Shown here in pieces: positions 15,545 to 63,185 of a stretch of 64,000 nt of DNA. The notes beneath the pieces were generated by a model that saw only the letters and a program-made list of their open reading frames with translations, was not told the DNA's origin and searched no databases. A program made the translations under genes and the position numbers. Source of the DNA: Sipunculus nudus (Eukaryota; Annelida; Sipuncula; Golfingiida; Sipunculidae); NCBI GenBank assembly GCA_026874595.1, contig CM049312.1, forward strand, positions 66,122,929 to 66,186,928. The letters are read 5' to 3'. The number at the start of each line of letters is the position of its first letter. Position 1 is the first letter of the stretch.

Positions 15545-16053
15545 GATTTTTAGCTCAGCTGACTTTTAGTCATGTTGTGCTATAGCGATGGGTCTTTGTC
15601 CGTCGTCCTTCCGTCTGTCCGTCCGGCCAGCCGTCCGGCCGTTAGCAGGGCACAAAGTGTAACTGTAAGGGCTAGATACATGAACCGTATGCAGTCTTAG
15701 AGGTTCTAAAAAGATCTCCTTGCAGATCTGAAATTAGGTCACTGTGACCTATATCCTCTGAGTTACAAGGTGTGTTTGCACCTCCCAGAATTAATTCTTA
15801 TAGCCAAAATAATCATCCAAAACCTTACATGTCAATAGAGGAACAAACCTTTTGATATTTAGGTCTGAGGGTCAAAGGTCAATGTCACAGGACCAGCTTC
15901 TTTAAAAAAGTTGTGGATGCATTTCAAGTCAGACTTTTCATCCCAAGCCTTCCATCTTCCAAGTATGGTCAGATACCATATGGTATACCATCAGGCTTTA
16001 AATACAGGTCATGTTTGTCAGCTGAGCGTCATGACCCATGGGTCACTTGTTAT
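15545..16053 (+). mobile_element. Internally deleted R1 copy, ~510 bp
   Basis: It has both R1 ends: TTTTTAGCTCAGCTGAC at the left and GTCAGCTGAGCGTCATGACC to GGGTCACTTGTT at the right. The outer 12 bases (AGCTCAGCTGAC / GTCAGCTGAGCG) are near-complementary. The body is cut to about a third of the copy at 61.7 kb. One DR1-like site, GGGTCAAAGGTCA, is at 15869. From 16054 to 18230 nothing is recognised except the inverted segment at 16.68 kb. Confidence 0.8.
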
Positions 16054-18231: not shown

Positions 18232-19030
18232 TTTCATTGACCATGACATGTTTTTTTCCTGTAAGTACTGTGGATTTAATTTTCACAGCATGTTTTTTTT
18301 TAGCATTTTGTCTGTTAACACCAAAAATTTGAAACCAGTTGATCAAAAACTGTAGATTTTATTCAAGTTTTCAAGCACCATGTAACATATTGTCTCAGTT
18401 CCTTAAATTTGGCATACAATTAGATGTCTCCAAAACCCCCTACCATGCCAGGCATTTGGTCACTAGGACTTAATACCTTCGAGATATTAATGAAAAACTT
18501 TATTTTTTCAATAAAAACCCATTTTTACACTTCAAGACTGCCTTATATCAAAACCCCTGATCTGACTTTAATCATATAAAATATGCATATTTTTCTATAC
18601 ATTCTCTATGCACATGCCAGAAATGATGTCAGTATTGTATTTGCGTAATTGTTTTAAGTTATGGGCCCAAACATAATGCACTTTGTAAAAACCAAGAAAT
18701 ATATTTACTCCCTTAACAAGAGGATTGCTGAAGCTAGAGATTTTTTGTCAGGAATGTAACATTACCTTATCAAGATTCAATTGAATACCCAAAATTAGTT
18801 CTTAATTTTTCAAATTTTATAAGTTATTAGTATAAATATAAAATTAGTACCTTAAATTTTGCCAAACTTTGACCATGGCACGTTTGTTTCCTGAGAGCAC
18901 TGTTGATATAATTTTCATATCATGCACACATAAGGATTTCAGCTTTTTAGTTTAGAAAGCTGAAAGAAATTGGCCAAAAATTGTAGCATTTATAAATGTT
19001 TTTATGAGACCATGTCAGACCTTAGCCCTC
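18232..19030. repeat. ~633-bp period direct repeat, two diverged copies
   Basis: 'ttgaccatgacatgtttttttcctg' (18237) through 'gtagattttattcaagtttt' recurs as 'ttgaccatggcacgtttgtttcctg' (18870) through 'gtagcatttataaatg'. Divergence is substantial. From 19030 to 20160 the sequence is AT-rich without recognised features. Confidence 0.6.
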
Positions 19031-20165
19031 CCCAGAGCCTCGTGAGTCACCTGTATGTTGACCTTTCATCAAAGCATACACTGGGGCAGCCAGGCAGCTT
19101 ATGGCCAGCCACAGTTTATCCAGGTGTCCACCCCAACTCATCTAGTAGTTTTAACTAACAACATAACAATAAACAATAAATCAATAAATTTTTATTGGTT
19201 TTAATAACAAATTAAAGAAAAATGGAAAAGGAATTTGTTAGTTGATAATAACAGGAAATTAACTTGCAGTTACTGATGATATAAGAATCTTGTATCGATT
19301 GATAGAATGTCATGTATTCCAAATGCAGTCACCTATGGTATTTTTCAGTTCAATTTTAATTATAAAAAAATAAATCATATTATTCATTACTAATCATTAG
19401 GGATCATATGAAGGAAATTAATGATAGACAACGATGCACTTGATAATATTAATCTAGATTCCTGCTGTGTCTAGTGTGTACATTGATGTGAAATTAGTCC
19501 AAAATGAATATACTACATTTATTTTTTTTTAATATTAATAAAAACCATAAAACCATGTACTTATGATCATTATTTAAATGTGTGAATTTTGGATATTCTG
19601 GATTCTCAACATCATTGTTTGGTGAAAACTGAATAAATACCAGACATGGTGCGAATACTTTGCACATGTATTTGAATACGAATATGAAAATGTACTCCAT
19701 TATAACATTTCTTGCATAAGAATGGAAATTCAGGTAAAAATGAAAGTATATGAATACCAGTGCAAATGCTTTCAAAATGTATTCATTGCATTCAATGCAT
19801 TCATGAATATATTCTTTGATATTATTTTAATAATCATTTCAGTTGTATTTTTTTTTTAAATCAAACGATTCTCTTATTATTTTTAATAAAAATTATATTT
19901 GGGACAATTTGTAATTATTTTTAATAAATAGTTTTAAACTCATATTATATGTTCTGCTTATAAGTTATATGGCCTAGTCAAAATCTGTGTGACTATAGCA
20001 CTCCATTTGTTAATAAAATAAATGAAATCAGTCCTCTTTCCTGTATCCAAAGATACTATAAAATCATACATAAGCTTAACACCCACAACTCATAATACAG
20101 CTTATATTTATTTCCTCACAAAACAAGCATGTGCCTCATTTCTAAATCATATTTTTTTATCATAT

Positions 20166-20205
20166 ATAACAGCTGAGCGCCGTGACCCATTGGTCCCTTG
20201 TTTCA
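20166..20205 (+). repeat. Solo R1 3' end (diverged)
   Basis: 'cagctgagcgccgtgaccca' then 'ttggtcccttgttt' matches the R1 terminus, with the TGACCCATGGGTCA palindrome mutated at two positions. No body is attached. Confidence 0.55.
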
Positions 20206-21560: not shown

Positions 21561-22356
21561 TTTATTCTACTTTACCTTAAATAAATAAGAAAATTAATTT
21601 TATTCTAGATAGCTTGAGAGTGCCCTGCCGGGCGGGCTGGCAAAGAGTGCATGTATTATATGTTGTTTTTAGTAAGCTTACATACAGTTTTTAATGGAGA
21701 GGGGTCATTGGGTGTAAGGTGGCTTACTCTCATTTTGTTTATAAGTCCAGTGCTCCTGCATGCATGCTAAAATGTCGGCCATTAGTTTTCACGCTTATTA
21801 TTTTGACACGACGAGTATGAATGCGTTCAACCGTCAAATGTGCAACATACAAGTAAGTATAGACCCGGTCTTAACGTGTTCATCGCCCATGGTGGATATC
21901 CTCAGAAAGTTAACAAAACGTTAAAGGTTGCTCTTTTCTTGGAACAAGATGCATAGTCATAATTTGTAGTGTGTGATCTCTGGTTTTTAGGTTAACGTGT
22001 TGCCTGCTTAATTATTTGCTTAGGCCTGGTCAGCCATCTGTCGAAAGATTTGGTTTACACGAACAACGCGACTGAAGAAGGTCTACAAAATTGTTTGATT
22101 AGTAAAATAATATTAAAATAGTTCTCATCACTTTCGTGCATTCATGTGACCAAATCACTTTTTATTCAGTTTATCGTTATGGAGAAAATATATACGTGAG
22201 AATTAGACCATCATTAGACCATCATGCAGAAACGCAATAAAGTGTTCTAGTGCATCCCTGCCTTGCAGTTTACCCTCTGTTAAGCCGTGTCTCCACTTGT
22301 ACGGATGCGGTGCGTGTACGGTGCGGATACGTATGCGGATATTTTGTGTGTGTCCA

Positions 22357-22700
22357 CACTGTTAAAAGTTGCACGTAAAATAACGGTGCTTTGCACTGGC
22401 AGCAAAGTTGACAGTGCAATGCACCGTTATTTTACGTGCAAAGAAATAACGCAGTGCGTTAAATAACGTCGCATTGCACCGTAATTTTACAGCGCTTTGG
22501 TACGTAAATAAACGGTGCTTAGCCACGGGAAATAACGGGCATCTGTTATTTTAAGGGACAATATGCCGTTATTTTACATTGCTAAGAGACGTGAATAAAC
22601 AGTGTTTTCAACTGGAATCAGGGCATTGCACCGTTATTTCACGGTGCTTTGATATGTAGAATAACAAAACATTGTTACTTTATAATAAATAACAGTGCTT
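22357..22700. repeat. Subterminal repeats of the CACTG element
   Basis: Motifs related to GCACCGTTATTTTACG / CGTAAAATAACGGTGC recur about eight times in both orientations (for example 22374, 22421, 22477, 22570, 22628, 22690), often next to TTTGCACT. The right end has only one or two copies (27988-28000). In CACTA elements such repeats bind the element's own protein; that role here is inferred. Confidence 0.75.
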
Positions 22701-23928
22701 TGCACTTGGAGCTATATACTGTTACAGGTTTCCATAATCTTTCTCAAAACGTTTCTGTCTTGTCACTCCGGACGAACCCTTTATTTATATCTGTGTACTT
22801 CAAGTTTCTCATAACATGTTTTTTTAGAGTTTACCAGTAAAAATATTACGAACGAAGTCAGACCTCCTTATAATGATAGAGTTGTAACTTTCTGTTTGAC
22901 AGTCAAGTGTCCCGAAAATCAAATCAGGATATCCACAGAGGGAAATGCATCTTGGCTAATTTGGGAAATGGCATTAAAAATGCAAGCTCACACATAATAT
23001 CACACCACTTCTTTATTGTATGAAATATTCAACAGATCATCAACATGTATAACACGTGTACTTAATGTATATAGTTATTCAGATTATACTGATCTTCCAA
23101 AAGGCATCATTAGGAAGCAAACATATTTAAACATTTTGACCACACTGCATGGCAGTTAAATCGTCTCCAACTAAACATATAAAATTTGGCAATTAGTGCA
23201 ATATTATTATGATTACTATTATGAATGCTGTGTGTTATCTCATTAAGGTTGCTGATCTTTTAAAAAATGGGACCCAAATCTATTTATTATGTATCTTTGA
23301 AAAATAGATAAAAGTGCTTCAATAAATTTATAGTGTTGTAAATTAATGGTATCTTTAAAGTAAAAGATGGTCAGAACACAAGTCAAACAATTGAAATGGA
23401 TTTAACTTATATGTCACCAAATCTTTCTACAGTAAAGGCATCTACTTTGTGTGAAGCTTCTGATAATGAATTCCAAAATAAAGGTCCTTAGTAAATAAAT
23501 GATTTTTGCATCAATTAAATTCGAACTGGAAGGAGTTGAAGAGAATGCCTACACTGTAACAAGGGTGCAAATGTAAACGTTTTTCCATAAAAATAATAAG
23601 ATAATTACCTGATTTAATTAAGGCACTTAAACACAAGAATATTAAAAGTGAAATAGTCGTTAACTGATATTTCCTATATTGTTGATATATTATAGAGGAA
23701 AATGCAGCATTAAAACATTAAATCTGACCAACCAGCTCTATTGACAGTGGGAGGGCAGTTAGAGGTGCATTCAATTACCCCAAAATCAAGAAACCTGAAG
23801 GTCTTTTAAGTCCCTTGGGATACTCCAGGGTAAATATCCAAAATGACGCATAGCAAGCCTCCAGTGGAAGTAGAAATAACTTGCATGGGTTGACAGTTTC
23901 TGGCCATCCACCATATGTTACAGTGATG

Positions 23929-24532
23929 TTACAGTCCCAATCTTGAACATTCACAGGTGTTGGAGATCTCATTCCCTGCATACAAAATAATAAACAGAAA
24001 AGAGAGATTGTAAATGAAAGAAACATGAGAGAAATATTCAAGAATATAGTTCAGTGCAATTATCCCTTTAATTTTTATATTTTTTTTTTAGATTTTTTTC
24101 AAAGTCTGACGCTCTATCAATTTTCATTACAGAAAATAAACTTTTGTTCTTTCTTTCCAAAAATTTAAACAATAACTACAAAAATAGTTTTCTTATGGTC
24201 AATTGGAACCTTCAGAAGTGAAAATAATTATACATTATTATATCAAATATATCTTTACATTTACATTACAGACAATAACTGGCCAAGATTTTGTTCTATC
24301 TCCACAAAAAATTAACAATTTCAACATTTTTCTTTATATATGTATTTACTTAAAAAAGGTTAAAACTATCTTTAATACTTGCTGAATATATTAACACAAA
24401 TATAATAGTTTTGAAGGAATTACCTCTCCTCCATCTGCAATCCCATATTATCCTTGCATTCTCCAAACAGTGAAGGCAGTATCCTGTATAAAGGAGCTTT
24501 GCTTCTGCAAGTACAAATACACAGACAATGCA

Positions 24533-24630
<98 letters not shown>

Positions 24631-26573
24631 GTGATACAAATCAGTTTTAATATCATACTCAGTGAATGAAAGTTGATCGATTAATAATCATTTTTTTTCA
24701 TTTTATGTGCCATATTATTAACATAAAATCTGTTGTATAGATAAATAAATATTGACAGAGTAAATTAAGCCTAGCATGTACATCACACTGAAAGGTCAAG
24801 ACTATACTTGTTAATACTTATTCACTGCATAAGGATAACATTAATACTGTTTCCTGTTAAGTGCCCATCTTTCTAAAATCTATAAGAGAGTTAGAATATT
24901 TCATTGGAATAAAGAGACTTCTTTTGAATGTGCATACCTGATCGTATATGAAAGGTTATGGAAAAAAAATACATGATTTGATGATTTAATTATGAAATGT
25001 CCTTTTCCAGAATGATTTCGACAGACAATAGACCTGACAATGTATTTTTAAAGGTCGAATGAAAGTATGTGTAAATATGAAGTAATTAACAGTAAGGCTA
25101 TGGGCCTGGATTTATTTATTGTAACTGTAAATAATTATATTATAAATATTTGATAACCAGAATATCTGCAATGTTTTATATGGAGTAAACATGTTCCAAA
25201 CTGCAAAAAATTAAAAAAAATAGCCAATAATCAGCAGGTTTGACAAATGACACTGTCAGGTTAGAGATGGTCAGGTTAGTGTGGCTCAGCTCCATTAAGC
25301 AGCAAGCCAAAAAGTTTATTAGAATAAAAATGAATGGAGAGAATGATAAACAGGCAGGCGAATTTAGGTCAGCATCACTGCTAATGTTCATTATGTAAGA
25401 TACTTGTTTCACAGATTATTAAACTCATCAGCTTATTCAAATTGCCATGGACTTTACAAAAGAAAATATGATAAAATTCAAACTTACCTTGGTGTACCTT
25501 TTCTGCAATGTACTCTGCTAGGAATTTACCCTGCAACTGCTTGCCAGTGTAGTTGTGCACCTTGCACATCTGGCATTTGTACTTTGTTCACAGCTCTAAG
25601 TTTGGTAAGGCGTGGAACATTTACGTCATCTTTCCTCTAATCATTGATGCATGTATGGCTCTCTGAACACCTGCACAAGTAGAACAAATTCTAGGAGTAT
25701 ATAAAAACAGAACTGATAAACATGTAACCAACGAAAGAGAATCTCAGCACCAGGCATATTAATAATATTTACAAAGTAAGTGCAGGTATATAAATTAATA
25801 AACAAAAGTGCTATATTGCATATAAAAATGGTAAATATTGGGTCAACAAATGTTTTTACTCAGTGTATAAACAGAAAGGTGCAAAAACAGCATCACGTGT
25901 ACAAGGATTTATAAATAGGAAGCAATATATATGCAGTACAGCCTTTATATTACAAAATGATGTAACATTTGTAATTGCATTTACATATACTAGCTATTAT
26001 AATATAACAAGGGCTACAGGTATAATGCAAACCTGCGTAATCTTTCCGGGTTCCCTGATGATAAACTTGACTATTATTTGAAAAGTTATTATTTTTTAAG
26101 GTGTGGCAAGTACATGTAAAAAGCAAGTTCTACCAATTTTGAATCTTAGTACAAGTATAAATGCGCTCAGTCTGATGCATACTGATGGATGAGATGTGGT
26201 ATACCCCATTACAAAGGCCTATATGTGAGTGAGGGGGTGTCAAAAACCCCATCCAACCCACATTATGAATGGAAATTGCAACCCTGTACAACAGAGTTGG
26301 GGGGGGGGGGGGGTCTCTGGAAAATTTCCAGCTATGTTTTCCAACAAAAGTTCAATACCAACTTTAGTACTGGTATCAGTGAACGACAGTGACAGAGGTG
26401 GTGTCTTCCCTGTAGCTCAAATGACTTACAGTCAGCTGAGCTAAAAAGGCAGTATATTATTATGTGATGTTTAAACTTACATAATTCCTATTCTTAAGAA
26501 ATAGGAAAGTTGCCATGATGGTATCCAAATCTTCTTTGAATTTGCCACACTGATGGAAATGCTTGACCATTTT
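23929..26573 (-). pseudogene. Unknown multi-exon gene carried by the CACTG element
   Basis: Exons read on the minus strand: 26573-26481 (93 nt, acceptor TTATGTTTTCAG, donor gtaagt; KMVKHFHQCGKFKEDLDTIM onward), a second exon ending at 25488 (donor gtaagt), 24504-24424 (81 nt, acceptor TACTTGCAG, donor gtaatt) and 23975-23929 (acceptor TTTGTATGCAG, TAA stop). The last three join in phase 1 and give a Cys-rich C terminus with KYKCQMCKVHNYTGKQLQG, YTGYCLHCLENA and NTCECSRLGL, suggesting metal binding. The second exon carries two in-frame stops (TAA, TGA) upstream of the CxxC motif if it extends to the acceptors near 25.67 kb, so the locus looks broken, or that exon is shorter than I assume. No transposase signature is seen. 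A decayed relative of the first exon lies near 54.65 kb. Family unknown. Confidence 0.5.
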
Positions 26574-26962
26574 CTGAAAACATAAACAGTATTTGGCTGT
26601 GCCTTAGCAGCCTTAATTTTAAGGCTCTCTCCCTCTCTCTCTCTCAAAAAGACTGGCTAAAATGTTAGCACTTTGGCCAGCATGGTATGTTTTTTTTCTT
26701 CTAAAACATGTTAAGAAATTTAGGAAATTGTCTCAAAGCTGTTAATTATTTGTTTGGTCTGTGTTTACTCTCTGTTTAAGCATCTGTTAAAAATATAAAA
26801 AAAAAATAAAGGGACTTTGATATCTTAATTTCTCTGGTTGACATGTAAGTGGGAAAACCTTATTCAAGGCCTCATTTAAAATCCAGTAAATAAATAATTC
26901 AAAACTGTTTTCAGTGGTGCCTTTACCAATATTTCACCTTTAAAGGATATATATATATATAA

Positions 26963-27012
<50 letters not shown>

Positions 27013-27704
27013 CATGTATATTTATACCATTCATGCATGATATATACCCAGACATGGCCAGGTGTGTGTGTTTGTGGGTCGGGGGGGGGGGGTTTGCTTC
27101 CTTTTTCCTAATTGGCAATTCCCTGAAACTAAAAAAGACTTAATCATTAATGATAAACATTGGCATCAATGCAGGAAATGGGGGTTATATATCCCCCCCC
27201 CCCACTTTTTTAACAAGGGGGGATTGGTCAATGTAATCATCCCCAACACTGATATTGAGCAAGTAACAATTACTTTTATATATTGGACATGTAATATATT
27301 AATAATTAGAAAACTTGACTTTGTTTCCATTTCTGAGTTAACTGAAATATAAGGTTATCTAATAATCTAAACATGGTTTAGAGTTGACATTTAATGGAAA
27401 CATAAAACCTGCACTTAATTAATATATAATATAAACATCACACAAATGTCACACATTATAAAATGTGTATATATATAATATATATACACATATATAGCCT
27501 ACATAATATATATTTCCAACTCAATCACTCTTCTACCTCTGCCAGTGACAATCGCCCCCCCCCCCCCCCCAAACACTGAGGGAACACATGAACGAGACTA
27601 GCCTCGTACCACTATACCATTACCAACGTACACTATTACATAGTATTAAAATAACAACTAACACAGTATACAGATTTATGGCTACATATTAAAGAAGAAC
27701 ATTT

Positions 27705-27850
27705 TACCAATAAAGATGCTGGGTAACTTCTGTGACTTTCAGCAGCCAGCGGACGGACAAAAATGGCTTCTCTTCCCGCCGTGGAGTCAAAAGACCCAGG
27801 ATGTTGACGTCATGAGTAGCCCCGCTGATCACATGACGCGCGGTTTATTT
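27705..27850 (-). promoter_or_regulatory. Putative promoter and 5' exon of the carried gene
   Basis: This is a locally GC-rich stretch with a perfect CRE (TGACGTCA, 27804-27811) and a TCACATGA E-box-type site near 27830. On the minus strand it is followed by a possible non-coding exon ending at a donor (TTTATTG|gtaaaatg) near 27708. It lies within 310 bp of the element's right end, oriented towards the exons at 26.5 to 23.9 kb. Transcription is inferred from position only. Confidence 0.35.
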
Positions 27851-28271
27851 CATCTGTACCGTCTGCTTTACACACGTGTCACACCATTTTCACAGACGCT
27901 CATCATTTGACGTTGCATTTGCGCGTTATTCAACGCACAAGAGCGTCTACATAGCAAAGCGGCGTAAATTTACAGTCTTATGCGCCGTTATTTTACGGCA
28001 ATTTTTAACAGTGCATTAGATACGTTTCTCAGTGCGTTTTTAGATCTTTCACTCTCTTTCACCTCTACAATATGGCACGTTTCCGCATAAGTTTCCGCAT
28101 GCGTTTCCGTACCCGGGGCTCCATGGTCCGGTTTTCAAAAAAACGTATCCGTATCCGCACCGCACGCCGCACCGCATAAGTAGATACACTCCTTCTTTAT
28201 TCAATATGCGCGATTTAAAATGCGTCCGCATTCGCATCCGTATCCGTATCGCATAAGTGGACACGTAGCTT

Positions 28272-30220
28272 TACTCCTTCAATATACTGGACGATCTCTG
28301 GTTAAATACAGCGTTTATTAAATCCTTTACACTGATTCTGAATAGGAGTAGGAAGAAGGAAATGGAGGGGACCCCAGAAACATTCTTGTACCATGGCAAA
28401 AAAGTTCCTTTCAGAGGCCCGGTCCGTATACGTATCCAAATTGGAACAGGAAATTTCAGTTTCGGGCTCGGACTAGCAGTACGTCCCTCCAGCGTGAGAC
28501 ACGCCCTACTAAAAATAATATAATAAGTTTGTCATTTATCAAAACCGCCATTTGTAAAGTGATAACAGAATTGTGTGTCAGGCAACAGCCTATGTATATT
28601 CTCAGGGAAAATACAAGTGGTAATATATCATGATTAAAATTCAGAAAGAACGGATTTTGGGAAAGGTGTATAGGATAATAATAGTAAAAAAAATAAAATT
28701 TTATTTTATAAAGCGTAAAACGTACGGTGATGTGCTCTAAAATACTACACAAGCATGAAATTGCATAAAAAATGACGGATTATGATAAAAAAATCATTAA
28801 AATAAGGATGCACACTAAAATTTAGATAATACTTGGGCTAGATATAAGAAATGCACATAATCCAATAATAAACTGTGATATGACTGTAAACTCATAAAAT
28901 ACATTAAACCTATAAAAGTAGTTAAAATCACGGTATAGAAATAAATAAAAAATTGCACAATCTGCAAAATCACAGGCCCTCAAAGTTTTGTACAAATAAG
29001 TGTGTCTTGAGCATTTTTTAGTCGGGATTGTCGAGTATCACAAGACAAGTCTGACGAACAAACGCCCAATGAAATCAATATGGCTTCCAAGGTCAGACCC
29101 GGCGGTGACACTGAAACCTAGAATGTATTTGTTAATTTCACGTTCGTTGTAACACCTGTGTGTACTTATACATACAAGGTCAACTCTTAAAAAAAGCTTG
29201 CAATGCTTCACAATTGTTTTAACACTCGCCCCAGATCAGTAGCTGTATACTTTGCCTTGGTGCAAGGCTGAGAATTATACACCAGGTGACCCGGGCTCCA
29301 TACTCAGCCTTAAATATGGTCTTACGAAATATCGTAGCGGTCCTTCTGATTTATCAGAAGGAAAGAATAAAAGAGTAATTAAGAATAAGATGCAGCTTAA
29401 ACTATGTTCACTCTACCTATATATCATTTATATATCAGTTTCCATACATGTGGAGTCTCCTGTTTATGTTATATATGATATAACAGCATTTTATCATGAA
29501 GAGAAGAGCAGAAGACCATCACTGACACAGCCTAGCCCATAAGAATGAACTCCGCAAATCCTTTTTTTATTTTACTGATGGACGCAGTCATATATATCAT
29601 TATTTAAAAAAAGAAAAAAAAAACTGTGACGGCGCTGTCGGCGGCTATGACACAGCCATGTTGCTGAGGCATGAACTCTGGTCACCCATGACTTAACTTG
29701 TGACCTGACCTCTGGTGTACCAGAGTAATTTATTGCTAATAAATCTATTTAAAAAATCTTATTTCATGAATAATACTTATGAGTAAATGATAATATATGG
29801 TTACAATAAGTCCTTTATAAGTTTATGGCTATATCTTTTAAGGTTTTAACAAATTTGCCTATGGAAGTTATGGAAACAATATTAACTATAATTCATTTGG
29901 GACAATAATCAGAGGACAACTTTTCTCATATCAATAAGGTCAAGGACAGGGTCATGTGACAAAAGATAAACATGACAGCATGGCAGGCTAAAAAACCAAC
30001 AGGAGTTGAAATCTTAACAATTTCCTTATAAGGGCACTTCTACATAATTTATTTTTACTCCAGAACAGTTTATTAGCCATTTTTGGTAAGAAATTTGCTT
30101 AATTGCCACCATTTTCTCTGTTTATTTTGCAAATATCCCAATATACCCTTGCTACGCTTTTCCATAAGAGGATCCCCATAACTGAAATCTCATTTCAGTT
30201 ATGAACCCATAACAACTGTA
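28272..30220. other. No recognised gene
   Basis: AT-rich, with an element-like fragment near 28420-28440 (GTCCGTATACGTATCC) and a short module at 29095-29180 ('gtgacactgaaac...aatttcacgttcg') that recurs at 32905 and 33160. Nothing else is supported. Confidence 0.5.
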
Positions 30221-30696
30221 TACTGTGGTTGCCGATTTGTTCGCCGGGGATTTTATTTCACGATATTCGCGAATGGGAAATAAGCGCGAATATTAAACCC
30301 ATGGGAATAAGATATCCCATCAACTAAAATAAGCAAGAGGGGTCAATGCATCAGCACAAACAGATTAGTTATAACATCTGAAAACATGATTCATTAATCA
30401 GGAACCTGATCTATGCAGGGTATCAAGGCCGGTCCCTGCAAACACGCATTAAGTATTGTAAAACATCACTTCGAATACGTCAGCTGTGACACGTAGAGGT
30501 CTTATATCATGACTGTAACAGAAATGAGTGAGGTGTTGTAGGATTTATTCTTATTTCATAATTAACACAAATACTGCAACTTTTATAAGATTTTATATAG
30601 GTTCTGCCGCAATCGCGAATGTGAAACCATCGCGAACAGTTGAAATTGAAAATATCGCGAAATTTCAGCCTCGCGAACATGTAGCCAACAACAGTA
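30221..30696. mobile_element. Inverted-repeat element (~476 bp)
   Basis: The left end TACTGTGGTTGCCGATTTGT and the complement of the right end, TACTGTTGTTGGCTACATGT, match over about 24 bp, followed by TTCGC on both sides. Several CGCGAAT motifs lie inside. The target duplication is unclear. The short open frames on each strand come from the inverted structure. From 30697 to 32900 nothing is recognised. Confidence 0.5.
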
Positions 30697-32904
30697 TTTG
30701 CCAGACGTCGTAAATAGAATAACATATTGTATTATCCAGTTTTTCATTAAACAGTTACTACAGCAGACATCCAGTTTGACGCGTCAAGGAATATGTGTCT
30801 TATCAGCCATAAACACAAACCTCATAGGTTTGGCCTATGAAGGATGTGCGCCCATATGTGTAATTCTTTTCCGGTAAATTACATTACATTCTTGCTCATA
30901 TCAGTAAGCAAAATAAGGCCATCGAAGCCTAATTGACATATGTTAAAGATTTCATTTGTCATAAATTCGCAGGAAGTAGTTTGTTTTTAACGCAATTGAT
31001 TTGTTGGCTTGTTGGCATGTTAATAATTTTACTATACAATTATGAAGAGATTTTATATATAATATTTATATATATATATGTACATGTAACTATGTATAAT
31101 AATATATATTCAGGGAAAAAATTCCAGGTAATCTGGATCGACGTTTTTAACATCGTGTTACATAAAAGACTCTTTTTTTTCCATTGCTACTTACACAGGT
31201 CTGACCTTATTGGAGCCGCCTTTGGATTATAGGGGAGAGCTGACCTCTGATGCAGCCATCTAGTTGGAGAACCGTGATAGATTTTTTTTTGCATGGATTT
31301 AACTAGTTCGTACGCTTGCGTTCCACAAACAATATTTCGATCAGCTTCTATTTAATATAAAGGATCTAGTGATCTAGAAAGTATAGTTCATCATGTTAAA
31401 TGATACGTTCATGTATTGTGCTGGTTTATAGTTCATTGATCATTTTTATTTTAAGAAACACAGGTCATAGGTCAGCCTCGAGATCAGTACGGGGATACCG
31501 TAGGTTGAGCATATGATGAGGTGTGGAGCTTCGTGACCATACAACATACGCGTACATACATAAAACTGATTTGTAAGCATAAATCGAAAATTAAGTGTCA
31601 TACTGGTATGTTTGCACGATAGTGCGTTATTGCATAAAACACGAAAAACAACCAATTATATACATTGTATTTGCTCAAGTCTGTCCATCATAGGTAATGA
31701 ATTGATAAAGAGTTTTTTAAGAATGATACATTTTCAAAAGCTTTCTACGTCGGTTGGGTAGATAAAGATAGGAACGATTTTTTCTTGATCAGCTGGTAAT
31801 CATATACGCCCCTCATGATCCTAAACCAGGCATCCAGTTGGTTTATTTGGCCATTTTTATGTTCATGTATACTTCTGATGTGATATTTTCCTGTTACCTT
31901 GACAACTTATTTATCAGTACTTCCAGTAAATCCAAAGAGACCATGCACGGATAAACATTTTGGTATTATTATATTTATTATTATTTTTATTATTTTAGAT
32001 GAAATATTCGCTTCTATACTAAATGAGTCGATGCTTCTTACGTTCCATTTAACTTTACCCGGGGCCCATCTCGTATACAAGATTAATTTCTTTAACAAGA
32101 CTACAATATTTGTTAAACAAGCAATATTGACAGAGCCTCCAAGCATTAAGTTATTAACATTATGTTTGCACTACCGCAGTATCAATGTAAGGTAGACCTC
32201 TAATGGTATAAATATACATACCTGTGCCTGGCTGGTCGGGTCAATTCTTTTTCAGTTTTACGTGAGTGAATATGTTACTAGGATATCTTCTTTATCTACA
32301 GCAGAATAGCGTCATGTTCAATACCTACTAAAAAAAACACTCTTTTAAGGCCCAAAATATTTTCTTTTTATGAATCCCTTTTTTTAATGTTATCCATAGG
32401 TGGAGCCACTGATTTGAACCTGTCAATGTGTAGATCGATTTCCCCTCTGCTGGATTCGCTTTAATTCTTATATCTATTGTCAATTATTTAATGGACATTT
32501 CGCGTTTTGAGGAATATGTGACATTTTACTTCAACGAATTCAAAGGATTTAAAAAAACAAACCCCAAGTACCTGGTTCGTATCCCGTCATTGCCTCAAAG
32601 CAAAATAATGAAATATAAATATATAAACTCGGATATTCACTCTGATGTCATAACGACTGCTTTTGACTTTGGATTTTTTCCTGGCCCTGAGCAGTTTAAG
32701 ATGGGCTTAAATTAACATATCATTCTTATTGTATCCTTAGCTTCCTCTATATCTATTATACAGTATCATCATTGGGCCAATAACTTATTGGTTAAAACAT
32801 CGAGCATTTGTTTCTAACAGAATTGCATCTTATTTATAAATTGTTATATTTAATACACGCACACAGTCAATATCAATGAGCAAATGATTTGGAAGTTCTA
32901 AACC

Positions 32905-33235
32905 AGCTGTGACAGTGAAACTTACAAATGATTTGTTATTTTCAGGATCCACGACGCACATGTGCGCTCTTACACACAAGGTAAGCTCTGACACATGTTT
33001 GACATGATTAAAGAGTACTGATATTGGTAAAATTAAACAGTTTTTGTAGGGAAAATGAACACCAATTTTCATATGTTTGTGTGTGTGTGATATCATGAAA
33101 ACAACCTTAAAATATTTCCTAATGTAGTACAAAGTGGGAAATATATCAACATCTCGCTGACAACTGGGACACTGAAACTAACAAATCGTTTGTTTATTTC
33201 AGGTGTCACCCTACACCTGTTTGCACTTCTCTGTC
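32905..33235. repeat. Two copies of a small dispersed module
   Basis: 'gtgacagtgaaacttacaaatgatttgttattttcagg' (32910) and 'gggacactgaaactaacaaatcgtttgtttatttcagg' (33167) are related to 29105. Each ends in TTTCAGG and could be misread as an exon acceptor. Confidence 0.5.
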
Positions 33236-33254
33236 TAATTGCAAATACATTATA

Positions 33255-33584
33255 AAGCTGCGTGTCCACTAATGCGGTACGGATACGGATGCGGATGCGG
33301 ACGCGTTTTAAATCGCGCATATGGAATAAAGAAGGAGTGACATGTGTCCACCTATGCGGTGCGGAGTGCGTGCGGCGTGCGGAAACGGATACGTTTTTTT
33401 TTTTTAAAACCGGACCATGTAGCCGCGGGTACGCGTGCGGAAAGTGCCATTTTGTAGATGTGAAAGAGGGTTAAAGACCTAAAACGCACTGAAAAACGTA
33501 TCTAATGGACACACACGCACAAAATATCCGCATACGTATCCGCACCGCACACGCACCGCGTCCGTACAAGTGGACACGCGGCTT
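33255..33584. mobile_element. Intact copy of the GTGTCCACT inverted-repeat element
   Basis: The ends AAGCTGCGTGTCCACTAATG and CAAGTGGACACGCGGCTT are inverted, and the interior alternates GGATACGGATGCGG-type motifs. About 330 bp long, it equals the joined halves at 22.3 and 28.0 kb, so it serves as the empty-site reference for the 5.66-kb insertion. Confidence 0.75.
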
Positions 33585-35760
33585 AATACAGGACTGTTTC
33601 GGTGGTATGGTTTAAAACATGACCCATCCAGAATGTTTAATACTCGGTTTTGTGCGTCATTAATTAGTAGAAATAATTCTTAAAGTGTGGTGGTTAACAT
33701 AATAAGTGTAAATAGTGTATATATGTGTGCGTGGCCGCGACATCATACCTCCCCCCCCCCCAGGGGCGTGTTTAGGGGGGCATAACAGGCGCCCCCCCCC
33801 TCCCCCCCCCAAAAAAAATCTGTTCAATAAATTTTTAGGGGGCACCCAGTTTCGTAAATTGTCAGGGCGTGCCTAAACCTTTTGCAAAATAAGTTCACAA
33901 AGTTGTATTTGTAAGGCTCTGGGCATAGTTAAAACCGTTTCGATTTAGTAACCGTATAGGATAACACCCTCTAGTTGGTATGTTACTGCTGCTGCTGCTC
34001 ATGTATAGGTCATGTAGCACGACAGGCTTAGTGGTTAGCCATTAAATACCGGTTCTGTGATTGTTTCAGGTAACGTAAGTGTCTGGTGTTCAATCCACGC
34101 CGATTTTAATCTAATTTAAAGTGGGCCTATGAGCGGTGGAGTCAGCAGGTACACCGTGACGGGGGCACGACGGGCCCAAGGGGTGCCCGGTCGACCAGGA
34201 ATTTCCTATATATAGAGTAGAATAATATGTTTGAAAATGTAAAAGTCTCATTTAGTTTTTATTTTAGCTTAAACAAATTTTAGCAAGGAGGCCTCGCGAG
34301 GGTCCGATATAGGGCGACAGAGATGCGCATCCCGTTTGTCATTTGAGAAACATGTTATTGGAGTTTTTAATCCAAATTGAGGGGTCTACATTGATGGACC
34401 ATGCAGTACCGGCCAGGAATTTACTATATGGTCCAATGAAATGTTTGAAAATGTAGAAGTCTTACTTGATTATCACATCTGGTCGAGACTCTTGTTACTA
34501 GCGGGATCAAGGCGTCCACTGTGACAGATCACACGCGCAAGGCACAAGCAGCCACATTTCATCTACGTAAATTGCTCCGGGTGGAAGGTAGTGATGGAGG
34601 CATGGCTTAAATAGATCTTTCAGGGCAAATGAGGGCTGCTAATAATCGTCGATAATACGCACAATAACGCACAGATTTGCTACTTACAAATCTGGACCGG
34701 GAGGAGGGGCCAGGGGTATCGTCAAGACGAAGAACAAAGGAAATCATACTGACACTGGTCACAATGAAAAGCGGACACGAGTTAACTGCTGTAAACGGAC
34801 AGGAGGTGAACAGGGTGTTTCAAATGTAGCCACCAGGGGAGTCAGTATTCATAACCCATGGGGCTCTATGTATTTATTACAATGCCATTCAAACAACCTG
34901 CACCATCTTAGGGTACAGAATCCGAAAATATAAATATCATATTTGCCTCTAGATAGAGACACCAGACACTAGATAGAGCATACGCTTATGAATGATAAGG
35001 TCGCGAACTGCCACCCCCCCCCCCCCCCTCCTCTTAACTCCAATTTTATGTCAACAAAATTGTTAATTTTGCTAAAAGAATTGGTCAAGAATATCCTGAT
35101 TAGAGATTCAACAGCTTGAATGTACAAATTATTTCTAGTTGCATAATAAATTACGATACAGTGGTTTGGCATCACGGATAACTAAAATTGAAAAAAAAAA
35201 ATAGTTTGATTGAAGCATGGAGTTTAAATTAAAAAAAAAGTGATAACATATGTCGGAATGTCGGTTAGGTGATATATTCCTTGGTATTAGTACTTGTCAT
35301 ATTGGGTACAGGCGTGGATCAAGCGGGGGGGGGGGGGGCGATATTTTTTAGACTTATGACAGGCTAATTGCTCGGAATAATCACACAATGACATCCGTTG
35401 ACCCCCCCCCCCCCCCCCCACACACACCTTCCTGTAAAAATCATGGCCAGGGGTAACCGTTCTCATGTCAAATGCCTGTGGGATGATGGAGGGGAATGGG
35501 GGAACTGATGCTGTAGCTGAACTGTACCGAGCACAGCCGACAAAGGTGCAGTTGTTTCTATTTGGAGGCTGGGGGGGGGGGGGGTCACACAGAACAATCG
35601 CGTTTTCAGATATACACATAAACACAAACTATACACACGTATATATTATATATAATTTATGTCATATTTTATTTTACAAGAATGTGCAAATTATAAAGTT
35701 GCTTTATTATCAACACTCGTAGCACTTGGTCAGATGGAAGGGGTGTTTTAAGATGAGATG
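33585..35760. other. Non-coding, poly-C/poly-G rich
   Basis: Several runs of 10 or more C or G (33751, 33795, 35016, 35325, 35402, 35571) and the repeat shared with 21.5 kb at 34190-34450. No gene is supported. Confidence 0.5.
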
Positions 35761-36276: not shown

Positions 36277-36898
36277 TTACATATGGATAAGGTACCCCAT
36301 GAATGAGTTAAAAGGCATCACTCCCCGAAGGCTGTATTTTGAATGTTCACAGGTAACCACCTGAACCACATCTACCTCCTGAAGTTTGACCAGTGCACCC
36401 ACAGCTATTGTGGCATAGGTGCCCTGACCCCATCCGTACGCTTTTACTTTGGAGTTTTTCTTTATATTAAGGCACCCCGTTCCTATACTGCTCAACCCGT
36501 ACACGTAGAACATGTAATATCCAGGGAAGGGTGCGGTGAACGTATGGCTGAACCTGTTGTAGTCGTTTCCTTTGTTCAGCAGAATGACGTTGTAGGGTAC
36601 TCTGTACTCGTGTCCTGTAGGACTGTAAATGTCGGCCCCCTTGTATTTCAGGTGGAACATCACTGTCAGGATCAGAGACAACATATCAGGACATATACTA
36701 CATTTTTTTTTATTAATTATGTTTTTATCAGTAACAGCCGATCAAGGAGGAACGATTATGAAGGAACTTCGACACGTATCTATATTTTAATTTGAAAATT
36801 AATACTCACTTGTGTATGATATAAAAGACTGAGAATATTAATGCTGGAGTATGAAACCACCTGGTTAGATATTTAAGGATGATTCATTTAATATCAAG

Positions 36899-55696: not shown

Positions 55697-58114
55697 CTAG
55701 TCCGATAGAAGAAGCACGTTTCTTTGATCCGGATTGCGAATGCACGTCTGCATAGGCGCACCAAGGCTGGCTTTGAGTCTCATTTTAAAAGGTGCTATCA
55801 TGTGTGGTTTGGTAGGCCAGTCTAGGTAACTGACGCTCCGAATCATTCCGGTTAGTCCTGCTGGCAGCAATTTGCTGTTTTTCATACAAAGCATCTGCAC
55901 ATATGGATGAACAATAGGAACCACCCGACTAGAGCGTGAGTTCAGTGAGTGTGCATGCGAAAGCTGGGCTTCTAATTCACACCATCCAGATCTGATAAAA
56001 TGCTTACTCACACAAACTATGGTACCCCGACTCTTTGATATAGCGTCTAAAATATTTGCTGTGATAGGAAACCCAGGCCGGAAGTGACGATAATGTAAGC
56101 ACAGACGATAAGGCCTTGTTTTGTCTTTCTCTAGGGGTCTAACGATATACATATAAACGAAGTCTTCGTCTTTACCTGAGTAGGAAACAAAGGCATCAAA
56201 CACAAACTTCGCGTTTTCCTGGGCTGCCACTTGGCGTAGCGTGATAAGATACTTGATCATGGTTAAATGATACTGAATTTGCCATTTGAAACGGTAAATC
56301 AAGTTCAAGATCGTTATCATTAATAATATAGTGGCAAAAAGAGCAAATGCAATTGTATCCTCAATGTCCATTTCCATGCAATGGTTCGTAAGTCTCATAC
56401 TTTCCTTCAGAAGAAAGTGTGTCTTACCATCCTCTCCAGTACAAGTTAAAGGTCGAGATCTCGAATGCAGAACCGTGATGTTAAGCTGGCTCATAACAAA
56501 AAAATATAGATCTCTTAACACATCACAGGAGCATTTAATCGGGTTGTCTAACAGGTTCAGTTCTATTTGGGTTCCTGTATTCCTGCGTTTCTGAATTACT
56601 TCAAGATAATGCAGACCAATATAACTGATATATTGAAAATCATAATCACTCAGATCAATGTACTCAATAGAATCCAACCATTGAAAATGTTCGACTGTGT
56701 TATTTATTTTATTTCCCTGTAATAACAGCCAGCGAAGTTTCTTCTGAAAGTGAAATATTTTACCCGGCAAATTATGTATATTTAGGAGAGACAGTTCTAA
56801 GTAAATTAGGCTAGGGTTTCTTGCAAATAATCGATCGGATTCTTTCCGTTGAAAGATCTCTGGGGAGACATTGTTATTCATAAGCAACATTTGTAAGTTT
56901 GGCATTTTGTAAAAGAAACGAGCCTCAACATACCCGCACTTGGTATCCCGCAGGTTGATGTATTTGAGACGAAATGAACAGCATAAAGTTCCATTCAGAT
57001 ATTTCAGTCTGGTACCACCGAGATCAAAGAACTGTAGTCCCTGTAACATAAACCAGTATTTTTGGCCATCCACACTGTAAGGAAGATATCCAAGCTGATC
57101 AAACACAATAACACTCAAGTTGGGTATGTAAACATCAATCACTGTGGCTGTCGCCTTGCTCGGTAAGACAGGATATGATGCATTAGGCTGGCTTGAGACA
57201 AATTCCCCCCAGTTTAGGGTGTTGTGTAGTCCTGGTGGTGGGAGAGTAGGGTTACAATCTTTTCCTATATATTGACAACCCACGTCTATTCTGACCAAGT
57301 GTTTTAAGAAGGGAAGGAGAAGAATAACGTTCTTGTCTCCTAATATCTGGTTATTTCGTAATGATAAAAAGCGCACGTTCTTAAGATTTAATATGAACCC
57401 GGCTGTAACTCTAACAATGTTGTTTCTTTCTAGATATAAGTGGGCAACATTTGGTAGGCATCGTGAGAAATCGGAATCTACTGTAAAACCGATTATATAC
57501 TTGTGTCTGAAAGAGCTATTCAAAGCAATGTAGTTGAGATTTCCCGATGCCCCGCAAAATACGTGACCAATATTGGTTATATCCATATTGCAATGGTGCG
57601 CTTTAATTTCATTTAAGTTTGGCATTGGTGCCAAAGCCTGTGGCATGAACGCTATCTGAATGCCTACATTATCCTGCCAAAGCGATAATACCCTTAGCTT
57701 ATTTAATCCCAAGAAGGCGTCGCTCTCTACCAGTCTTATTTCTATGTGATTGATCAACAAGCGCTCAAGGTTTTGATAGGAGATGAACGAATTATTTGAA
57801 AGGACGTCGATATCCAGGGACCGAAGATTTAACACAACAATTGGATACGATCCTGTGAGCTCACGTAACTCGCTTGCAGTTGGTATCCTTGACAACCCCT
57901 CACATGTCACCCCAGCTTCAGTTTTTCCCTGTTTTGTTGTAAATTTGGCACGACATGGTGACTTTTTATTTGAATTTGTTTGCTGGTGCAAAGGATATGT
58001 AAATGCCGAAGTGTGGCTTTCTCTTATACGTCCGACAGCGTGCCCTTTTCTGCTTCCTTTGGCCACTACAGCGAGGAAACAAACGGCCAGTACAGTTCCC
58101 CTGTTGTGACGCAT
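55697..58114 (-). CDS. Toll-like receptor (LRR-TM-TIR), intronless coding region
   Basis: This 805-residue type I membrane receptor would sense ligand outside and signal through a cytoplasmic TIR. Residues 1-20 are a weak signal peptide (core TVLAVCFLAVVA). Leucine-rich repeats run from about 85 to 520 with LxxLxLxxN-type motifs (LRFLSLRNNQI, LQMLLMNNNV). One C-terminal cysteine cap has C528, C530, C558 and C579, so this is the single-cysteine-cluster type. The membrane helix spans about 587-608. The TIR is 636-785: box 1 FDAFVSYSGKDEDFV (639-653), BB loop RHFRPG (676-681) and box 3 SYLDWP (762-767). The BB loop has His where many TLRs have Asp; Pro and Gly are kept, so signalling may persist. 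Translation starts at the first ATG after a possible 5' UTR acceptor (TTGATTGTTCCAG, ending near 58138). Codons 25-65 are basic and unusual for an ectodomain start. A relic of a second copy lies downstream. Confidence 0.95.
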   Translation of the reverse strand: MRHNRGTVLAVCFLAVVAKGSRKGHAVGRIRESHTSAFTYPLHQQTNSNKKSPCRAKFTTKQGKTEAGVTCEGLSRIPTASELRELTGSYPIVVLNLRSLDIDVLSNNSFISYQNLERLLINHIEIRLVESDAFLGLNKLRVLSLWQDNVGIQIAFMPQALAPMPNLNEIKAHHCNMDITNIGHVFCGASGNLNYIALNSSFRHKYIIGFTVDSDFSRCLPNVAHLYLERNNIVRVTAGFILNLKNVRFLSLRNNQILGDKNVILLLPFLKHLVRIDVGCQYIGKDCNPTLPPPGLHNTLNWGEFVSSQPNASYPVLPSKATATVIDVYIPNLSVIVFDQLGYLPYSVDGQKYWFMLQGLQFFDLGGTRLKYLNGTLCCSFRLKYINLRDTKCGYVEARFFYKMPNLQMLLMNNNVSPEIFQRKESDRLFARNPSLIYLELSLLNIHNLPGKIFHFQKKLRWLLLQGNKINNTVEHFQWLDSIEYIDLSDYDFQYISYIGLHYLEVIQKRRNTGTQIELNLLDNPIKCSCDVLRDLYFFVMSQLNITVLHSRSRPLTCTGEDGKTHFLLKESMRLTNHCMEMDIEDTIAFALFATILLMITILNLIYRFKWQIQYHLTMIKYLITLRQVAAQENAKFVFDAFVSYSGKDEDFVYMYIVRPLEKDKTRPYRLCLHYRHFRPGFPITANILDAISKSRGTIVCVSKHFIRSGWCELEAQLSHAHSLNSRSSRVVPIVHPYVQMLCMKNSKLLPAGLTGMIRSVSYLDWPTKPHMIAPFKMRLKASLGAPMQTCIRNPDQRNVLLLSD

Positions 58115-58139
58115 TTTTTCTGATAGCTGCCTGGAACAA

Positions 58140-59165
58140 TCAAGTACAAGGCACGGTAGACCAAGGAACTGTGTTTTGTAATCATGCTAGATTATTGAAA
58201 GAAAAATAGAAACAATGATCGATTATTAATCGATTAGCTGAAGTGGCTTTGATATAATGTAAATACAGGGAGCATGCAAAATTTTGTATCTTGGTCGATT
58301 AAAGTAAGTATACTTTGCTGAGAAAATGTGCAATCCACAGGATTACTGACATAACATATCCTACATATTAAATATTCATAATATGTGTTGCCTAATCGCA
58401 ATATTATTTTGGAGAGATCTAATCAGAAAACCGATATACTATAATCTAATTGATGTAGTAATCGCTATTTACAAAAAAAGTGGTTTTAAATCCCAGAAGA
58501 GTGACGGGTAAAAGAATGTACTTTGTCCCCATCTACTTTTACCCAAGTATCAAGGCTATAGACCCTTTTGTTGTGAGATTTACTTGGAAGACACGATATT
58601 TATCTTACCCCTAGCGATAACCCTGAACCCTAACATTAAAAAATGTAAAATTTTCCGTGAATACAAAGAACAAATTAATGGGTCTGGTTGTTTAATTTGT
58701 TTTAGAATCGAAAGTTTTATATGACCTTAACTCCTACCTTTACATCAAAATCTGCGACGCTAAACCAACTGATTAAAGTTATACATATCGGGATTTTGAA
58801 CCAAGCCGCTGAAATATCACTACAGAGCATTTTGCATAAATGCAGGCGAAGGAGGAAATGTCGATTGCAAACGAGATAATATCGCGTGCAAACGATAGAA
58901 TTTTGTTGCGGGCGCAAGCGATATAAGAATAATTTATTGTGTGTCCTATACGAGCCCACGTAAATATATCAAATAAAGAAAGAAATTGTACACAAAAACT
59001 CTATGCAACACAGAAACTCCGTGACCTGGGAAGTATCTTTGTCTCGCCACTAACATAAATGTAAGATTGAAGTATATGGGGATATATTTCATTTATAGGG
59101 GACCAGCTGGTCTATTTCAATCGATTTAATACAGCACGCTACTTTTGTTATATAATTGTCAAAGG
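58140..59165. other. Upstream of the TLR gene, nothing recognised
   Basis: AT-rich sequence that should contain the TLR promoter or a 5' UTR intron. No clear TATA or NF-kB-type site was identified by eye. Confidence 0.35.
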
Positions 59166-61720: not shown

Positions 61721-63185
61721 TTTTTAGCTCAGCTGACTTTCAGTCATGCTGGGCTATAGCGATGGGTCTTTGTCCGGCGTCCTTCCGTCTGTCCGTCCGG
61801 CCGTCCGTCCGTCCGTTAGCAGGGCACAAATCGTAACCGTAGGGGCTAGGGCCATGAACCCTATGCAGTCTTAGAGGTTATAAAAAGATCTCCTTGCAAA
61901 CCTGAAATTAGGTCACTGCGACCTATATTCTCGAAGTTATGGGGTGTGTTTGCACCCCCCAGAAATAACTCTTTAAGACAAAATTTTCATCCCAAACCTT
62001 CGATCTTTCACATACAGCTCACCTACCAACAGGGGAAGAACCATAATTTTTTTTAGGTCAAAAGGTCAAAGGTCAAGGTCACAGGAGCCTCTTCTTTGAA
62101 AAGCCTGTGGATGCATTTTAAGCCAACCCTTTCATCCCAATTCTTTGATCTTTCACATATAGCTCACCTACTAAGTTGGAGAAAAATCCTATAGATTTTG
62201 AGGTCACAAGGTCAAAGGTCAGGGTCACAGGATCCACTTCTTTGAAAAGGTAGTGGACGCATTTCAAGCTAGACTTTTCATTCCAAACCTTCCAGCACTG
62301 ATATCGCTTCTCTGCCAACAGGGGAAAAGACCTGTTGATTTTGAGGTTAAGGGTCAAGTTCACAGCACCCACTTCTTGCGTGGAGTCATTTTCAGGCAAA
62401 CTTTTCAATCTGTACCTTCCATCTGTCATATATGGCTGACCTACCAATAAGGGAAGAAGCCTATTGATGTTGAGGTCAAAAAGTCAAAGGTCAAGGTCAC
62501 AATATTTAATTGTTCGAAATGCTTGTGAGCATATTTCAAGTGTAACTGTTCAACCCAAACCTTCAGTCTTTCACATATGCCACATTTATACATCACTCAG
62601 TTTGACTCAAACTTCATATTTATGGGTCTTTTTGCTTGAATAAATAACTTATTGATTTTGGGGTCAGCTGGTCAGCAGGTTAAAGGTTGCAGGTCAAAGT
62701 TATTTACCCATTGGTTGCCAAGTAATTACACCAGATTTAAGTGGTCAGTAGTTACCCATCATTTAGAAAGAATCCAGTTGATATACGGGCAAAAGGCCAA
62801 GGTCATAGGTCAGGGATGTTCATAATTACTTATTTTATAGACCATCTCTATTTTTCTTGTATATATAACCATCCCACTCCAGCTGGTACATCTCCCTGTG
62901 TGGCTGTAATTGTGAGTGACACTGGTGACATATGACTCCCTTTTGTATCAGCCTATTAAGTGATAAGGCTCAGTGATAAGTACCTCGTTACTTCATAACA
63001 AAAACACTGTTGTCAGAATGCTTCAGCCAGGCATTAAGACTATGAGAGTATATAGTATTACGGTTTAGCTACTGATACTGGCAAATTGGTTCTTCAAAAT
63101 TTGACTGGAAGTTATGAATCTCAGTCCATGATGTCACAGGTCACGCTTGGCAGCTGAGCGTCATGACCCATGGGTCACTTGTTTT
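61721..63185 (+). mobile_element. Full-length R1 repeat, ~1465 bp
   Basis: The 5' end is TTTTTAGCTCAGCTGACTTT, followed by a (CCGTCCGTCCGGCC)n tract at about 61780. The body is six or so ~145-bp subunits. The 3' end is CAGCTGAGCG then TCATGACCCATGGGTCACTT (palindrome 63164-63177) and GTTTT. AGGTCAAAGGTCA is perfect at 62063 and 62209 and near-perfect around 62482, and TCAAGGTCA follows several of them. It is about 85-90 percent like the 13.7-kb copy by eye. There is no open frame of substance. A hairpin about 5 bases before the end recalls Helitron-type termini, but the CTRR end is not exact. Confidence 0.8.

Follow-up and report, generated by a model that had tools for sequence, protein, structure and literature searches.

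A young, probably non-autonomous 5.7-kb transposon family with a conserved left-end palindrome in the genome of Sipunculus nudus

The 64,000-nt stretch of Sipunculus nudus DNA analyzed here (assembly GCA_026874595.1, contig CM049312.1, positions 66,122,929 to 66,186,928; hereafter the window) contains a transposon copy at window positions 22357–28013. We consider it probable (roughly 0.8) that this is a copy of a young, ~5.7-kb non-autonomous family of DNA transposons with terminal inverted repeats. The family shows defined ends, a 2-bp target duplication, many near-identical copies indicating recent multiplication, and no detectable coding capacity. An earlier note, made from the letters of the window alone, had described a discrete 5.66-kb transposon with CACTG ends that encloses an unknown spliced cargo gene, possibly captured from the host. 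The transposon itself stands because of its inverted ends, its CA duplication and the match of its joined flanks to window 33253–33592, while the captured-gene claim is clearly weighed against and is replaced here by a recently multiplied non-autonomous family. The insertion consists of the following features:

22357..28013, no strand: transposon copy of 5657 bp, defined by its ends, duplication and empty site; its boundaries recur in other copies in the genome
22357..22389, plus strand: left terminal inverted repeat
27982..28013, minus strand: right terminal inverted repeat, pairing with the left end
22355..22356, no strand: target duplication CA (2 bp), left copy; the related empty site reads CA once
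28014..28015, no strand: right copy of the same duplication (CA), likewise single at the related empty site
22274..22356, plus strand: left part of a host repeat interrupted by the element
28014..28273, plus strand: right part of this host repeat, which together with the left part matches 33592–33253 on the minus strand
33253..33592, minus strand: uninterrupted relative of the host repeat (related empty site), 81% identical across the junction

The 33/32-base alignment of the left end with the reverse complement of the right end contains two mismatches and one gap, and its local score of 49 compares with a highest score of 28 among 500 shuffles, which bears out the inverted repeats of the earlier note. 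Both ends are of the CACTGTTAAAA type. When the flanks were joined and compared with 33592–33253 (minus strand), 293 of 360 aligned positions were identical (81%), and the joined flanks read CACA where the uninterrupted relative reads CA once. The 2-bp duplication is thus confirmed, and the empty site is visible in the form of a relative of the host repeat.

We searched the 1.43-Gb genome, of which the window is part, for relatives of the element. The search of the termini that the earlier note had proposed used a 32-base left-end pattern with TA, found 81 times, and a 31-base right-end pattern, found 124 times (up to two mismatches each; no match for either reversed control), so that members are visible only where their ends resemble these patterns. 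When the 81 left ends were paired by distance and orientation with right ends (100 of the 124 were used), 69 elements resulted, with lengths from 5.2 to 10.2 kb and a median of 5701 bp. The first 244 bases used as a query returned 147 candidates, the best 40 of which, the window's own included, all match the full 244 bases at 98–100%. Twenty loci fetched from the best left-end matches, several of which carry insertions and five of which (L009, L010, L025, L026 and L028) are represented in part, diverge by 0.64–3.4% from the window copy, and all 20 contain the body sequence. Older members also exist: four of them (L041–L044, extended by L045–L048) are ~86–89% identical over the first 2.4–2.7 kb and 78–88% further in. 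CACTG...CAGTG termini were read in 11 TA-flanked copies with both true ends and in six non-TA copies; in the old copy B44 the left start is altered. A pattern for ends with a different base after the shared core had no match in the genome (three for its reversed control), and an Rfam search of window 22000–34000 gave none. The literature search returned nothing recognizable as this family; Repbase and the repeat library of the species lay outside it, and either could already contain the family. In Repbase, non-autonomous elements are assigned to classes by the length of their duplication and the match of their termini (PMC4455052, in part). We regard the family as new, or at least unnamed here, within the known non-autonomous transposons with terminal inverted repeats; its length uniformity and one-sided palindrome (see below) are of some interest.

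The flanks of these copies define the target rule. Of 12 copies whose flanks were read, 11 were cut at their true ends (L018 was not), and each of these 11 has TA on either side; the six non-TA copies read at both ends carry the same pair on both sides in every case (CA, GA, TT, TG, TG and TT). Since these six match on both sides, the duplication is a true 2-bp one with a strong yet not absolute preference for TA, and the window copy with its CA is among the exceptions. TA also flanks 86 of the 100 right ends listed (of 124), a count made by eye from a search biased to TA, in which the pattern scored non-TA as a mismatch.

This preference is what recommends a different enzyme, and we regard as possible, with clearly less confidence than the family assignment itself, that the family is mobilized by an IS630-Tc1-mariner (ITm; for instance pogo-like) or a Harbinger/ISL2EU-like transposase instead of a CMC/EnSpm-like one. 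TA is the usual ITm duplication, and TA-duplicating relatives of Harbinger have been described (PMC8533490 and PMC12730594, each in part). However, the genuine CA, GA, TT and TG duplications in seven copies, the window's included, misfit a strict TA rule. The 5.7-kb length also differs from the 1.3–2.5 kb typical of Tc1/mariner, with more than 4 kb being commoner in pogo (PMC8533490, in part). The six frames of the element contain neither a Pfam family of ITm transposases nor a Harbinger-type transposase, a genome-wide partner search having been made for neither type.

The region that the earlier note had read as a spliced gene comprises four exon-like stretches, which sum to 560 nt:

23778..23975, minus strand: exon-like stretch, coding unsupported; no third-position excess in the open frame and 1–2-nt indels in older copies
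24421..24504, minus strand: exon-like stretch, coding unsupported; length differences of 4 nt (all four older copies) and 11 nt (two of these)
25488..25671, minus strand: exon-like stretch, coding unsupported; in the window copy, none of the three frames is free of stops
26481..26574, minus strand: 94-bp exon-like stretch with unusually little variation among young copies (diversity 0.004)

Splice-like sites with good resemblance to the consensus are present on the minus strand, and there are a few open frames. A profile search, a type of method suggested in the earlier note, compared the window copy in six frames and the old copy L042 in its three gene-strand frames with Pfam and found no family at E values up to 10; controls handled identically (TIR, C1q and a stop-containing reverse transcriptase) were recovered. 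A PDB search gave nothing better than E 0.11. Spliced open frames reach at most 590 nt on the minus and 598 nt on the plus strand, within the 249–810 nt of 40 dinucleotide shuffles, nine of which reached at least 590 nt.

Comparison among copies leads in the same direction. The old copies carry length changes of 1, 2, 4, 7, 11 and 32 nt within the exon-like stretches and no excess of third-codon-position changes; in 25488–25671, L012 and L014 share a 5-nt deletion, B42–B44 have a 7-nt insertion and B44 shows gaps of 32 and 1 nt. Divergence from the window copy, exon-like versus other sequence, is 10.3 versus 9.2% in B41, 10.1 versus 9.2% in B42 and 9.9 versus 9.1% in B43, as calculated over three exon-like stretches (two in B41, which lacks the third) with 26481–26574 left out. 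B42 and B43 are not independent because they are 99% alike.

That a CACTA-like element captured the exons of a host gene, the present frames being perhaps decayed, is unlikely on this evidence. The consensus-like splice sites, the few open frames and the lower exon-like diversity among young copies speak for it. However, tblastn with two joined exon-like stretches revealed no host parent gene among the best 150 of 634 candidates, no Pfam domain is present, and the exon-like stretches diverge about like the rest. The second stretch matches 131 places, and for 104 of them a listed element end is no more than 8 kb away; among the other 27, L041–L044 and L036 are copies of the element and a further seven fall within element DNA (15 uninspected). 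Conversely, the second stretch is matched within 6 kb inward of 79 of the 81 left ends; of the two left ends without a match, C3:33667735 shows the usual left body in the 2 kb that were read and C9:9556231 is unread. Because it lies behind 79 of 81 left ends and in 20 of 20 fetched copies, the exon-like region belongs to the body that the family members have in common and is not a unique cargo. At least seven loci had looked like intronless retrocopies of a spliced gene; six were fetched, and each turned out to be an element copy with the two stretches apart, so this candidate was rejected.

The other suggestion for the enclosed gene, a transposase too divergent for profile search that would make the element autonomous, is less probable still and in our estimate very improbable. 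In its favor are the fairly uniform length and the many full-length copies, features that are unusual for deletion derivatives. Against it, the spliced open frames are within chance, indels break the frame, there is no third-position excess between subfamilies, and the exon-like total is just 560 nt.

We therefore prefer a non-autonomous family whose transposase is encoded elsewhere. This enzyme would bind the inverted ends together with the subterminal array and the palindrome, excise the element by cut-and-paste and insert it at targets of 2 bp that are mostly TA, while the body would drift as a passenger. Several observations weigh against this reading. First, no autonomous partner was found, which leaves mobilization in trans an inference. 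Second, exon-like divergence in B44 is lower than in the rest of that copy (7.4 versus 9.8%). Third, exon-like diversity among young copies is 0.0138 versus 0.0204 for introns, and the 0.004 of 26481–26574 is below all 259 overlapping intron windows. The lower exon-like diversity could reflect weak constraint or chance. The sameness of 26481–26574 is at the DNA level and singles out no protein frame, because all three of its frames match at 100% in L039.

The left end of the element carries two further features:

22375..22698, no strand: left subterminal motif array (GTAAAATAACGG / AAATAACGGTGC, both orientations), identified by motif count
22369..22441, no strand: subterminal palindrome, predicted to be hairpin-capable, a 73-bp self-match at 88%

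With up to two mismatches, GTAAAATAACGG occurs 12 times in the element, of which nine are in the first 290 bp, two are internal and one is at the right end; 100 mononucleotide shuffles gave a mean of 0.76 and a largest value of 3. The subterminal motif arrays described in the earlier note are therefore real as an array, but one that is strongly left-sided and unequal between the ends. The predicted single-strand DNA fold of 22357–22450 has an energy of −37.1 kcal/mol (z −11). The 73-bp palindrome is identical in 17 of the 20 fetched copies, has one change in the other three, and has 1–4 changes per 73 bases in four old copies. Diversity is at its minimum in the first 100 bp (0.26%), compared with 0.94% at the right end and ~2% in the body, where a few bins are as low as the right end (0.76–0.86%). 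As judged from sequence, the conserved left end with its palindrome and array is the pattern expected for cis-acting transposase sites on a passenger element. This palindrome and the relaxed 2-bp target rule provide handles for a transposase search.

Neither the frames of the element nor the genome-wide end searches revealed a transposase with these ends, and the six frames contain no DDE transposase with a Transposase_21 domain. The CACTA-type domain PF02992 has seven matches in the genome, none of which is near a listed element end by coordinate, although a partner may have escaped detection. Four of the PF02992 matches lie in open frames of 549–973 aa (C5:65958699, C12:5842402, C8:57458013 and C2:44916544) and are candidate sources of CACTA-type enzyme. 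The CACTA-like label of the earlier note thus stays plausible yet unproven: CACTG ends, a 2-bp duplication and the array agree with it, but no transposase was found with these ends. Subterminal arrays of short motifs are a feature of EnSpm/CACTA (CMC) elements, and the element has one, mainly at its left end. It also has CAC...GTG ends of the EnSpm/CACTA type (CACTA/CACTG). A 3-bp duplication, which is consistent with EnSpm, is not found here, the duplication being 2 bp in the 11 TA copies, the six non-TA copies and the window. The CMCT clade, characterized by mostly 5'-CA..TG-3' ends and 2–5-bp duplications, does accommodate it (PMC12730594, in part). Taken together, the CACTG ends, a 2-bp duplication not restricted to TA and the subterminal array make a CMC/EnSpm-like enzyme most likely in preference to Tc1/mariner; the element resembles the latter in preferring TA for its 2-bp duplication and differs from it in its genuine non-TA duplications and its length.

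Known systems resemble the element in part. SmTRC1 of Schistosoma mansoni, an animal CACTA/EnSpm element, likewise has inverted ends and shows 2-bp direct repeats in 7 of 14 copies; a CCC core has been suggested for animal CACTA members, and SmTRC1 encodes a Transposase_21 protein (PMC1636069, in part), whereas the termini here are CACTG and no Transposase_21 protein was found. ESTA elements are fungal EnSpm-like transposons that duplicate TA and are defined by their transposase (PMC12730594, in part). Points in common are the duplication of TA and the CA..TG ends, which most of the CMCT clade has, but the present host is an animal and no transposase was found here. It would be a long shot that the unseen enzyme represents an unrecognized animal lineage, CMC/Transib-like, 2-bp TA-preferring and recognizing a one-sided palindrome, as an animal counterpart of ESTA.

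Several members depart from the common structure. Seven of the 81 left ends (AAATTGC) carry sequence of the right-end type, AATTGC, as at C1:35802145–35808288; six of these elements span 6.1–6.5 kb and one spans 10.2 kb, 2 kb of which was read. The 10.2-kb member at C3:33667735 was considered as an autonomous copy and rejected, as the 2 kb read is the same left body behind other sequence (the other 8 kb being unread). In L018 (C9:43503500–43512000) a right portion of ~0.9 kb is duplicated, leaving two right ends 1 kb apart, and at C12:38021317–38032900 two copies lie tail to tail with right ends ~0.3 kb apart.

Longer copies owe their extra internal sequence to inserts, which were rejected as a lost coding part. 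The inserts of L009, L010, L025, L026 and L028 have end motifs in common, and their insertion points show a 6-bp overlap; that of L019 has the motifs reversed and a 4-bp overlap, and that of L020 is different with an 8-bp overlap. Because L009 and L010 share one insertion point and L025, L026 and L028 another, the nested repeats multiplied along with the element. In older copies, an extra piece of ~0.9 kb lacks any long frame and carries a similar repeat tail; the domain search of this piece covered only the part within L042. The nested repeat is a second type with AGGGACC..GTCAGCTGAGCT ends, found in the same five copies and, reversed, in L019; in the window it occurs at 18237–20198 (minus strand), 15552–15642 and 61726–61816.

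Elsewhere in the window, 55697–58186 (minus strand) is a long open frame that combines leucine-rich repeats with a TIR domain (Toll-like receptor type), and 36277–36741 (minus strand) contains a frame with a C1q domain.

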